From positions 2,133,501 to 2,197,500 of the forward strand of contig NZ_CP009170.1 in NCBI RefSeq assembly GCF_000763575.1: 64,000 nt of DNA, given 5' to 3'. Of the stretch, positions 21,970-27,027 are shown piece by piece. Both the position numbers and the translations under genes were made by a program. The notes under the pieces were generated by a model. The model was not told the DNA's origin, did not search any database, and saw nothing but the letters and a program-made list of their open reading frames with translations. The stretch comes from Thermoanaerobacter kivui (GTDB lineage: Bacteria > Bacillota > Thermoanaerobacteria > Thermoanaerobacterales > Thermoanaerobacteraceae). The stretch's first letter is position 1, and the number at the start of each line of letters is the position of its first letter.

Positions 21970-24657
21970 TTACAGCAAACTTCCAAATTTTTTTACAAAT
22001 CTCGTTTTAACGTATTGCGCCAAAGTCAAGTATGCAAGAAGCGTAGCTGCCAAGAACAAGAAGTATATTGCTGGTAGAGGCGTCATCCCAAGTTTAACTC
22101 CAAAAGAAGTAAATGGCACAATCGTTCCTACTGTAACAGCTGCTGAGGTAAAAAGTAATAGTGGCCATGAAGCAATGCTTTGTATAAAAGGAATCTTCTC
22201 GGTCCTAAGCATGTGAACTACCATTGTTTGCGTCCATAAGCTTTCTACAAACCAGCCTGTTTGGAAAAGTGAAACAAATTGGAGTTTAAGTGCTTCAGGC
22301 AACAAGAAGTAAGAACCACCTATAACCAACGGACCAATTACAAAAAACATCAAAGCATAAGTGGTTATATCAAAAATTGAACTAGTAGGTCCAAACCATA
22401 CCATGAAATTGCCTATATTTGCAGCATCCCATTTTCTTGGCTTTTGTATATACTCTTTATCCATTGTATCCCAAGGCACTGATGTCATTGACAAATCATA
22501 AGTTAAATTAAGGAAAAGAAGTTGCAATGGCTGCATTGGCAAAAAAGGCAAGAATGCACTTGCTACTAAAACTGAAAATACATTACCAAAATTAGAACTC
22601 GATGTAATTGCAATGTATTTCATAATATTTCCAAAAATTCTGCGTCCTTCTACAACTCCCTCTTCTAATACCGTAAGACTTTTTTCTAAAAGTATTATAT
22701 CTGCTGACTCTTTTGCAATATCTACTGCAGAGTCAACAGAAATTCCAACATCGGCTTCTCTTAGTGCAGACGCATCATTGATACCGTCCCCCATATATCC
22801 AACAATGTGGCCTTTGCTCTGAAGTGCCTTTATTATTCTCGATTTTTGCATAGGAGAAAGTTTTGCAAAAATTGTCGTCTTTTCTGCTACTTCTGCTAAT
22901 TCTTCATCTGTCATATTCTCTATTTCATTTCCTAATAGAATATTCTCTACAGCAATCCCCACTTCTTTACAGATTTTCTTTGTCACTATTTCATTGTCAC
23001 CAGTAAGAATTTTTACATCTACTCCATGTTCTTTTAAGGCTTTTATCGCATAAGGTGCAGATTCTTTTGGCGGGTCTAGAAAACCTATATAACCCATGAG
23101 AACCATCTTACTTTCATCCGCCACACTGAAAACTCCCTCTGGTGGAACATCATTTTTTTGAGCTACGGCAAGCACCCTCATTCCGTCTTCATTTAATTTT
23201 CTTACCATTTCTCTTACTTCTTGGCGTATTTCATCTGTCAAAGGAACAACTTCACCTTTGTACTCAGCGTATTCGCAGATGGAAAGCACTTCTTCAACGG
23301 CGCCTTTCGTTACAAGCTGCCTTTTCCCACCTTCGCTCTCTAAAACTACAGACATTCTTCGCCTTACAAAATCAAAGGGTATCTCATCAACTTTTTTGTA
23401 TATTTTATCTAAACCATTAAAGCCCTTTTCAACTCCATACTCTAAAATAGCTACATCCATCAAGTTCCTTAGACCTGTTTGATAATAACTGTTAAGATAT
23501 GCATGTCTTAAAACTCTGTCATCTTCATTTCCATGTATATCAAGATGTTTTTCTACAACTATTTTGTTTAATGTCAAAGTGCCAGTCTTATCAGTACAAA
23601 GTATATCCATTGCTCCGAAATTTTGAATAGCATCTAATCTCTTGACAATTGTCTTATGTTTTGCCATTGTCACAGCACCTTTAGCAAGGTTTGTAGTGAC
23701 TATCATTGGAAGCATTTCGGGAGTAAGTCCAACAGCTACAGCCAAGGCAAAAAGCAATGCATCCAACCAATTACCCTTTGTAAGGCCATTTATCACAAAA
23801 ACAATTGGAAACATAACTGCCATAAACTTGATAAGCACTTTGCTGACATTGTTAATACCCTTTTCAAAACTTGTCATTGCCCTATGCCCTACAAGGGACT
23901 TTGCCATTGAACCAAAATAAGTACGGTCACCTGTTGAAAGAACTACAGCAATAGCAGAGCCACTTACTACATTGGTACCCATAAAGCATATATTTTCTAA
24001 GTCTGAGAGGTTTAAATCCTTAGCTTTCCTTTTTTCTTCTTTTAAATCCGGATATTTCTCAACTGGTTCAGATTCTCCTGACAAGGTCGCTTGGTTTATG
24101 AATAAGTCCTTGGAAGTAATAACCCTAACATCTGCAGGTACCATATCTCCTGCTGCCAAATGTATTATATCACCAGGTACTATTTCTTCCATTTTTATTT
24201 CTCTCTCACCTGTATCTTTGCGAATAACTGCAGCAGTTGTGTGGACAAGAGCTTTTAGTTTTTCAGCTTCTACATTAGAACGGTACTCTTGAATAAAACG
24301 AAGTAGCCCACTAACCGTTACCATTATAGAAATAATAATTATAGTGCTCCAATCCCTGTCTTGAGGTGCAGTAAAAAGCACATCAGTTATATATGACACA
24401 ATTGCCAAAAATACCAATATGCCTATGAAAGGATTTATAAATGCTTTAATCAATTGAATATACCAAGGATCCGGTTTTTCATGAGCTACCTCATTTAACC
24501 CATACATTTCAAGCCTATCTTCTGCTTCCTCAGAAGTCAGCCCTTCTATATCTGTACCTAATTGTGCCAAAATTTCATCAACATCTTTTCTGGCAAACTC
24601 AATTAATTGAGAAAGTATCATATCTGTGAAGCCATTTTTCTTTGCGATTTTGATCAT
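21970..24657 (-). CDS. mgtA: Magnesium-translocating P-type ATPase MgtA
   Basis: 895 residues of a P3B-type ATPase that imports Mg2+. An N-terminal cation-ATPase domain (GLTSEEAEDRLEMYGLNEVA) is followed by the actuator motif TLSGES, the phosphorylation motif DKTGTLT, the ATP-binding region and the hinge GDGINDA. Ten or so transmembrane helices are present, with PEMLPMIV in the M4 region and NLTYDLSM in M6. ATG at 24657 is chosen because the GGAGG is 9 bp away; an ATG two codons earlier is only 3 bp from it. An M-box riboswitch and a structured leader control it. Confidence 0.95.
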   Translation of the reverse strand: MIKIAKKNGFTDMILSQLIEFARKDVDEILAQLGTDIEGLTSEEAEDRLEMYGLNEVAHEKPDPWYIQLIKAFINPFIGILVFLAIVSYITDVLFTAPQDRDWSTIIIISIMVTVSGLLRFIQEYRSNVEAEKLKALVHTTAAVIRKDTGEREIKMEEIVPGDIIHLAAGDMVPADVRVITSKDLFINQATLSGESEPVEKYPDLKEEKRKAKDLNLSDLENICFMGTNVVSGSAIAVVLSTGDRTYFGSMAKSLVGHRAMTSFEKGINNVSKVLIKFMAVMFPIVFVINGLTKGNWLDALLFALAVAVGLTPEMLPMIVTTNLAKGAVTMAKHKTIVKRLDAIQNFGAMDILCTDKTGTLTLNKIVVEKHLDIHGNEDDRVLRHAYLNSYYQTGLRNLMDVAILEYGVEKGFNGLDKIYKKVDEIPFDFVRRRMSVVLESEGGKRQLVTKGAVEEVLSICEYAEYKGEVVPLTDEIRQEVREMVRKLNEDGMRVLAVAQKNDVPPEGVFSVADESKMVLMGYIGFLDPPKESAPYAIKALKEHGVDVKILTGDNEIVTKKICKEVGIAVENILLGNEIENMTDEELAEVAEKTTIFAKLSPMQKSRIIKALQSKGHIVGYMGDGINDASALREADVGISVDSAVDIAKESADIILLEKSLTVLEEGVVEGRRIFGNIMKYIAITSSSNFGNVFSVLVASAFLPFLPMQPLQLLFLNLTYDLSMTSVPWDTMDKEYIQKPRKWDAANIGNFMVWFGPTSSIFDITTYALMFFVIGPLVIGGSYFLLPEALKLQFVSLFQTGWFVESLWTQTMVVHMLRTEKIPFIQSIASWPLLLFTSAAVTVGTIVPFTSFGVKLGMTPLPAIYFLFLAATLLAYLTLAQYVKTRFVKKFGSLL

Positions 24658-24768
24658 TCCCATACACCTCCAAAGCACAATAATAGACTAAGGCTGCTGA
24701 GTCTTTTGCAACCCTACAATTACAGTATTTGTTTTTTTGTGAAAAACTTTCGTATTTAGACGATGGAA

Positions 24769-24963
24769 TTAAAAGGAATAGTTTTGGAGGTATATGTAAT
24801 AGGACATCAAAAGAAGGGATAAATGGGCACTCCTACCAAGAACAAAATTTATAAAAAAGGCCACCTGTGAGAAGAATGGACGTGGCCCGAAACTATGCCC
24901 ATCCTTCTTCAATGTCATATTACATATACCTTTGTGGCTTTTACTACTACCTCCACCGTCCAT
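24769..24963 (-). CDS. Possible 64-codon leader ORF of mgtA
   Basis: ATG at 24963 follows GGAGGTG with ideal spacing. The frame reads MDGGGSSKSHKGICNMTLKK and ends in a hydrophobic stretch (LSLLLMSYYIYL). It lies in the mgtA mRNA between the M-box terminator and mgtA. The start region is one arm of a perfect 16-bp inverted repeat, so its translation may depend on RNA folding. I know of no homologue. It could be a regulatory leader peptide or a chance frame over a structured RNA. Confidence 0.45.
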   Translation of the reverse strand: MDGGGSSKSHKGICNMTLKKDGHSFGPRPFFSQVAFFINFVLGRSAHLSLLLMSYYIYLQNYSF

Positions 24964-24972
24964 TCTTCTCAC
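24787..24972 (-). promoter_or_regulatory. Interleaved inverted repeats in the mgtA leader
   Basis: Repeat A: 24867-24882 is the exact complement of 24957-24972 (16 bp, arm GTGAGAAGAATGGACG). Repeat B: 24789-24829 is complementary, with few gaps, to 24896-24930 (ends GGTATATGTAATA and ATGGGCA). Each repeat has one arm inside the loop of the other, so both cannot form as simple hairpins together. A short hairpin GGCCAC/GTGGCC (24859-24887) encloses one A arm. Confidence 0.75.
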
Positions 24973-24991
24973 CTCCATTTTTTTGCAAATT

Positions 24992-25024
24992 AAAAAACCT
25001 CTCAACGAATGAAAGAGGTTTTTA
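24992..25024 (-). terminator. M-box riboswitch expression-platform terminator
   Basis: AAACCTCT pairs with AGAGGTTT followed by a T run. Its loop CATTCGTTGAG can instead pair with CTCAACGAAT at the 3' edge of the aptamer, giving an anti-terminator. Confidence 0.85.
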
Positions 25025-25034
25025 AACATTTCAA

Positions 25035-25205: not shown

Positions 25206-25234
25206 ATTATATTCTTCTATTTACAATCTGTCAA
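25206..25234 (-). promoter_or_regulatory. Sigma-A promoter of the M-box/mgtA transcript
   Basis: Consensus TTGACA (25234-25229), 17-bp spacer, consensus TATAAT (25211-25206) on the minus strand, just upstream of the aptamer. Confidence 0.88.
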
Positions 25235-26881: not shown

Positions 26882-26909
26882 AAAAAAATACCGCGAATGC
26901 GGTATTTTT
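26882..26909 (-). terminator. TPP riboswitch terminator
   Basis: AAATACCGC pairs with GCGGTATTT around ATTC, followed by a long T run on the minus strand; its 5' arm overlaps sequence that the aptamer end can sequester. Confidence 0.85.
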
Positions 26910-26910
26910 A

Positions 26911-27000
26911 AGCCGCATTCCCTACGTAGGCATTACCCTCGTCAGGTTCCAAGGGTTTGGCTTAAAAGCCATCTCAGCCATTAAGGCTCCCCCAGCGGAC
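26911..27000 (-). promoter_or_regulatory. TPP (THI element) riboswitch
   Basis: The minus strand shows GGGGGAGCC, GGCTGAGATGGC, then CCCTTGGAACCTGACGAGGG and TAATGCCTACGTAGGGAA, the conserved TPP aptamer blocks. It precedes thiT and a terminator, so thiamine pyrophosphate should repress transport. Confidence 0.96.
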
Positions 27001-27027
27001 ATAACCACCTATTTTGTTTTCACTTTA

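Follow-up and report, generated by a model that had tools for sequence, protein, structure and literature searches.

A probable leader-peptide attenuator behind the M-box riboswitch in the mgtA leader of Thermoanaerobacter kivui

The mgtA leader of Thermoanaerobacter kivui probably contains, in series with its M-box riboswitch, an attenuator built on a small leader peptide and resembling MgtL and MgtQ, a likeness that is probably convergent. The RNA anatomy of this region, comprising a leader ORF (uORF), its arms and complementarities, and their conservation and covariation, is well supported by comparison of related leaders. We infer that the uORF is translated, that its translation controls mgtA in the direction proposed below, that ribosome drop-off is the Mg2+ signal, that one pair of arms locks the outcome, and that expression of the transporter would rise at low Mg2+ through abortive translation of the leader.

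The window, a 64,000-nucleotide stretch of the T. kivui genome (NZ_CP009170.1), carries on its minus strand a perfect promoter, an M-box with its terminator hairpin, and a leader of about 300 nt between that hairpin and the mgtA start at 24657 (Table 1). The match to RF00380 is confined to the upstream part of the leader, leaving the arms and the uORF outside the Rfam model. In the transcript the arms follow one another as A', B', A, and B between the M-box terminator and mgtA. The original prediction had described interleaved inverted repeats in this order, with A' lying over the Shine-Dalgarno sequence (SD) and start codon of a 64-codon ORF, and both the coordinates and the complementarity were confirmed. 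A 231-nt segment folded at -75.2 kcal/mol (z = -4.7 relative to dinucleotide shuffles, with 0 of 200 as stable). Most folding was performed at 37 C; at 65 to 70 C, nearer the growth temperature of thermophiles, the helices were weaker yet still favorable. Elsewhere in the window, a TPP riboswitch (RF00059, 76 bits; 26901-27003, minus strand) precedes a gene whose product, a membrane protein of 238 aa, may transport thiamine.

Table 1. Features of the mgtA leader region, in transcript order (window coordinates)
Feature	Position	Strand	Basis
Sigma-70 promoter, TTGACA-17-TATAAT, 5' of the M-box	25206..25234	-	12/12 consensus bases, perfect
M-box (ykoK) Mg2+ riboswitch aptamer, RF00380	25022..25189	-	151 bits (gathering score 44), E 2e-34
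M-box terminator hairpin, then T run	24990..25026	-	Inverted repeat I7; kept in sister species
uORF Shine-Dalgarno sequence, GGAGGTGA	24969..24976	-	Sequence; present in all genus members and in G019 and G023
Arm A', covering the 3' part of the uORF SD, start codon, and Asp2	24957..24972	-	16/16 complementary to A
uORF, MDGGGSSKSHKGICNMTLKKDGHSFGPRPFFS..., 64 codons in the window	24769..24963	-	N-terminus kept in all genus members searched; relatives in other genera
Arm B', inside the uORF (GGTATATGTAATATGACAT, extended by TGAAGAAGGATGGGCA)	24896..24930	-	Fold; covariation
Hairpin GGCCAC...GTGGCC with arm A in its loop, then T6 (24853-24858)	24859..24887	-	Terminator-like
Arm A, CGTCCATTCTTCTCAC, anti-SD/anti-start of the uORF, inside the uORF	24867..24882	-	16 nt, 100% complementary to A'; shuffle test
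Arm B, partner of B'	24789..24829	-	Repeat search, fold, covariation
Anti-SD part of B (CATATACCTCCAAA), alternative partner of the mgtA SD	24783..24796	-	Repeat I5; fold with B' masked; shuffle test
mgtA SD and start codon (TTTGGAGGTGTATGGGAATG)	24655..24674	-	Sequence; sister-species comparison
mgtA, magnesium-translocating P-type ATPase	21970..24657	-	NCBIfam TIGR01524, 1232 bits

The uORF begins with MDGGGSSKSHKGICN at an ATG at 24963, is preceded by GGAGGTGAGAAG, and runs to a stop codon ending at 24769. Its SD is good and it lies between the promoter and the gene for an Mg2+ transporter, the arrangement expected of an Mg2+ leader-peptide attenuator. Across the genus the N-terminus is retained as MDGGGSSxxxKGICNxxLKKDG, while the C-terminus and the length vary: most sister species have a uORF of 36 to 43 codons, one has only 23, the whole range is 23 to 64, and the length of 64 codons in the window is, judged from these sequences, local drift. 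Related mgtA leaders were also found in other Clostridia, with peptides starting MDDGGNSMNGGSTGICNMTL in another family (G023), MDTGSSTDGENKYIC in another genus (G019), and MEGGSRC in G001. A scan for the uORF start GGAGGTGAGAAGAATGGAY over the genome_contigs collection (one genome per species, 84,980 species) added leaders in Niameybacter, Ruminococcaceae, Clostridiales, Eubacteriales, and C. difficile, where the genes behind them were taken as mgtA from their N-terminal sequences. Each of these leaders has an M-box upstream, and the peptides are MDASSSNGTGPD, MDSGSSNGTVPDG, MDAGSSNGINPDG, MDTYSIGDIEPDG, and MDAGSSNNISSVE; an additional leader, L184, likewise has an M-box. A pattern search within the order of G143 and an NCBIfam family search with the peptide from the window gave no match. 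What these N-termini share is an acidic second residue together with Gly, Ser, or Pro, as in MDGGGSS, MDAGSSN, MDSGP, and MDPDP.

Small mobile elements typically carry long inverted repeats, and a recent mobile palindromic insertion, like absence of the repeats and ORF from orthologous leaders, was named at the outset as an outcome that would count against a regulatory role. Neither occurred. The leader region is single-copy in its own genome and sits at the same place in 10 of 10 genomes of the genus searched, the window's own included, so that neither several copies nor variable presence was seen and a MITE or IS-derived element is refuted by orthologous conservation. With a conserved peptide, a helix that covaries across genera, and the fold stability given above, we attach almost no weight to a mobile insertion or to a chance fold with a spurious ORF. 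It is also very improbable that the uORF encodes a functional small protein, such as a transporter subunit or regulator, in place of a cis-acting leader peptide. The conserved N-terminus would fit such a protein, as would the conserved M-box-controlled uORF of unknown role in Mycobacterium (PMC12810186), but C-termini are unrelated between genera, length shifts among sister species, and part of the coding region (arm A, below) is retained as RNA in three reading frames.

A comparative signal lies in the B' and B arms, which are located within a 49-nt inverted repeat (24759-24807 / 24912-24960). In a hand-made alignment of 11 distinct leaders, with arms chosen by eye for complementarity and structure thereby favored, 93.6% of the cells of the B':B core were paired and 6 of 10 pairs carried changes on both sides (19 cells). 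Of 500 shuffles, none equaled the alignment in paired fraction, in double changes, or in covariation score, and sliding the B/B' partner lowered pairing to 30 to 49%. A third partner of B, the mgtA SD, had been missed in the original prediction: CATATACCTCCAAA is complementary to TTTGGAGGTGTATG (24661-24674), including one G-U pair, and in G019 the B sequence ATCCCTCTTA is complementary to the mgtA SD and start, TAGGAGGGAT. Pairing between the uORF and the anti-SD was reached by at most 3 of 200 shuffles in 12 of 16 leaders. The B:SD pairing is statistically weaker than B':B; roughly half of the mgtA leaders show it clearly, and it is no better than shuffles in G023, G001, L150, and L173.

Modeling of ribosome occupancy points to a switch between these two partners of B. 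Masking B' as if it were covered by a ribosome moved the predicted fold to B:SD, and when a footprint was scanned along the leader, the modeled cost of exposing the mgtA start was higher with a ribosome about 27 to 63 nt into the uORF in most of 17 leaders, rising from 4.6 to 19.5 kcal/mol in the window, from 3.1 to 23.0 in G004, from 9.6 to 15.9 in G019, and from 4.2 to 13.0 in L157. The modeled cost dropped back after the ribosome had passed the B' region; G001, L148, and L165 showed no rise in the scan. In silico, the mgtA leader can thus adopt mutually exclusive folds that depend on the position of the ribosome on the leader ORF, the modeled choice being B':B, with mgtA open, versus B:mgtA-SD, with mgtA closed. 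Two exclusive hairpins, A':A and B':B, or a pseudoknot had been proposed. The pseudoknot is possible, since the two pairs are interleaved and could coexist, and simple exclusion between them is not required. The broader proposal of a second control layer in which translation of the leader decides the fold is supported by the modeled opening costs, the compensatory changes in B':B, a reading frame conserved at its N-terminus, and the orthologous leaders of the genus and of other Clostridia.

The A' and A arms join the start of the uORF to a site near its end. No shuffle of 300 reached the A':A pairing of the window, and for the uORF start and its best downstream partner at most 2 of 300 did so in 14 of 16 mgtA leaders, the exceptions being G023 with 8 and L165 with 25. 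Arm A ends 0 to 33 nt 5' of the uORF stop codon in 15 of 17 leaders, the others being G000, where the ORF is extended, and G009, where it is cut short. The frame in which the arm is translated differs between leaders, with all three represented (FFS; ILL or VLH; SSH or ISS), and it is therefore kept as RNA and not as peptide. Leaders outside the order were found via the A' sequence, so A' itself cannot covary much; the one compensatory change in A'/A is from C-G to U-A, in G019.

In the window, arm A coincides exactly with the loop of a GC hairpin that runs into T6; in G019, the 5' half of A is taken up in a different hairpin, which also has a T tail. These hairpins could belong to a transcription attenuator in which GGCCAC...GTGGCC-T6 terminates and A':A acts as antiterminator, set by ribosome occupancy of the uORF start. 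We consider this improbable: a terminator scan gave no match, G008 lacks the hairpin, most relatives have short T runs, and A':A is conserved without the hairpin. An intrinsic terminator as the general output was rejected as a conserved feature on account of its absence in G008 and the short T runs.

The attenuator that we favor, acting on translation of mgtA, would work as follows. At low Mg2+ the M-box would permit transcription, and ribosomes would initiate on the uORF. During normal elongation a ribosome would cross codons ~9 to 21 and melt B', so that B could pair with the mgtA SD and start, leaving mgtA untranslated. Abortion within the acidic, Gly- or Pro-containing N-terminus (MD...), as expected when Mg2+ is scarce, would allow B':B to form and the mgtA start to stay open. 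After abortion, free A would pair with A' over the uORF SD and start, blocking further initiation so that B':B would be left undisturbed and the ON state locked, whereas a ribosome at the uORF stop would cover A and A' would stay open. The M-box would then be a first gate, asking whether Mg2+ is low enough to transcribe, and the peptide a second, asking whether ribosomes are failing.

Ribosome drop-off is the most likely, if unproven, Mg2+ signal, and it is suggested by the likeness of the peptide to the EPDP motif of MgtL and to Asp2 and Glu5 of MgtQ. In Escherichia coli, the EPDP motif of MgtL causes ribosomes to drop off at low Mg2+; in the published model, completed translation keeps mgtA off, while drop-off turns it on via refolding of the mRNA (PMC11282234). 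As in Escherichia and Salmonella, the small ORF described here stands before mgtA, and its early acidic character recalls MgtL, in line with the likeness in principle that had been proposed; the peptides are similar in motif only, and convergence is assumed. The systems differ in that MgtL controls a Rho-dependent terminator where an SD-sequestering arm is predicted here, and the leader in T. kivui sits behind an M-box. The peptide in the window has Asp2, Gly in place of Pro, no second early acidic residue, and no proline in its first 25 residues, making it weaker than EPDP. MgtQ (D2, P4, E5), encoded before mgtB of Salmonella, is also an acidic uORF; it requires Asp2 and Glu5 and frees the SD of an Mg2+ transporter gene through alternative stems, as translational control (PMC8092293). 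It differs in the order of its arms (1:2 and 3:4 versus 2:3) and in lying between genes of an operon with no riboswitch directly upstream, and the published MgtQ model has no arm that closes the start of the uORF itself.

Gly- and Pro-rich N-termini can slow elongation, and the same attenuator could respond to something other than drop-off, such as ribosomes that slow down or stall at the N-terminal codons, or general translation capacity. Early pausing on the uORF would likewise leave B' unoccupied, and in several leaders of genes other than mgtA the main SD opens in the model when a footprint is placed on the uORF start, which is how a stalling attenuator would behave. We regard this reading as possible but unlikely, since the feature common to surveyed uORFs is Asp or Glu at codon 2 (51 of 67, below), the residue class linked to ribosome destabilization in MgtL and MgtQ (PMC11282234, PMC8092293). 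Stalling is a variant of the attenuator that we favor, and confidence in the rival readings overlaps with confidence in the main one.

When one small ORF between M-box and gene was picked by SD strength, blind to its peptide, 67 of 108 dereplicated M-box leaders yielded a strong-SD ORF. Codon 2 encoded Asp or Glu in 51 of the 67, and in 39 of the 67 there was also a Pro within residues 3 to 8; typical peptides begin MDSGPYN, MDSGPVSK, MDPDGSN, MDPDPGSS, MDDPYPG, MDADPEP, METDPGR, and MDAAPS. The same test on reverse strands returned an acidic codon 2 in 1 of 47, main genes had one in 12 of 108, and among 30 SAM-riboswitch leaders of the same phylum three had such an ORF, all lacking Asp or Glu at codon 2. 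Codon usage at this position is mixed (GAC 22, GAT 20, GAA 8, GAG 1), which argues for selection on the residue. Two genomes with two M-boxes, G001 (L024, L033) and G019 (L013, L032), have an MD or ME uORF at both, of the types MEGGSRC and MDTGSS for mgtA and MDSGPY for mgtE. In five leaders lacking an MD uORF (L098, L114, L117, L119, L130), a conserved block close to GGGGGTGATTGTCTTCAGTC lies between M-box and gene, possibly a different small ORF or arm.

Leaders of mgtE suggest that the element extends beyond the M-box. Simpler arms were seen in mgtE leaders of the window's family (GGGAGGAGT / ACTCCTCCC / AAGGAGG as SD) and of family f4 (GTGGAGGGGTGCTAA / TTAGCACCCCTCCAC / GGAGGGGTGCTAA as SD). 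Genes for mgtE (PF03448) in genomes with no M-box match are also preceded by MD-type uORFs, with peptides MDADSSNGT (four genomes), MDAGSSTGISEDG, MDSGNTGD, MDGSPCHSP, MDGDGGKRD, and MDSGPSW, and Rfam at a permissive threshold found no M-box in these mgtE loci (L217, L222, L223, L239, L234, L241, L229, L244, L183). All three pairings, A':A, B':B, and B:SD, can be drawn in L217 and L222. At L162 (1283-1700), two successive MD-type uORFs (MDSGGSSKDCGG..., then MDPGPLPGYFNEK...) precede an mgtE-like gene on a stretch where no M-box was detected. In M-box leaders of mgtE and other genes besides mgtA, a ribosome modeled at the uORF stop often opened the main SD in the partial set covered, with mixed signs, and a generic rule that such a ribosome closes the main SD at all M-box uORFs was unsupported there. 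The output rule may differ by subfamily, and because of these mixed signs we claim a detailed output for mgtA leaders only.

The nearest published M-box case is uORF2/Rv1805A of Mycobacterium, a conserved small uORF 3' of the M-box that was reported to be restricted to mycobacteria. Its N-terminal part is conserved and one proline is invariant, no role has been assigned to the peptide, and it is the uORF itself that the expression platform of the M-box controls (PMC12810186). That paper was the sole relevant match for an M-box with a leader peptide or uORF in the open-access PMC literature, and an earlier description elsewhere may exist. Here the M-box (RF00380) with its terminator would form the first layer, and the uORF and arms also occur where no M-box is detectable. 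A stand-alone, widespread Bacillota class of Mg2+-sensing leader-peptide elements, independent of enterobacterial MgtL and MgtQ, can be proposed only tentatively, at a little short of an even chance. Its members would combine interleaved, pseudoknot-capable A'/A and B'/B arms, drop-off on MD-type N-termini, and a self-locking uORF start, with or instead of an M-box before Mg2+ transporter genes. The survey suggests a widespread second Mg2+ switch before transporters across many Gram-positive bacteria, for which no description was found in the open-access PMC literature.

To our knowledge, sensing by ribosome destabilization has been recognized in enterobacteria only. If the model is correct, many bacteria would gauge Mg2+ twice on each transcript, once through folding of the M-box and once through their own ribosomes, whose Mg2+-dependent stability would serve as the second gauge. 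Sensing of this kind would then reach a large part of the Bacillota, and an acidic residue at codon 2 would mark it simply in genome sequences. The model would account for small ORFs that lie unannotated behind M-boxes, possibly including the mycobacterial uORF, and convergent evolution of nascent-peptide Mg2+ sensors would become directly testable.
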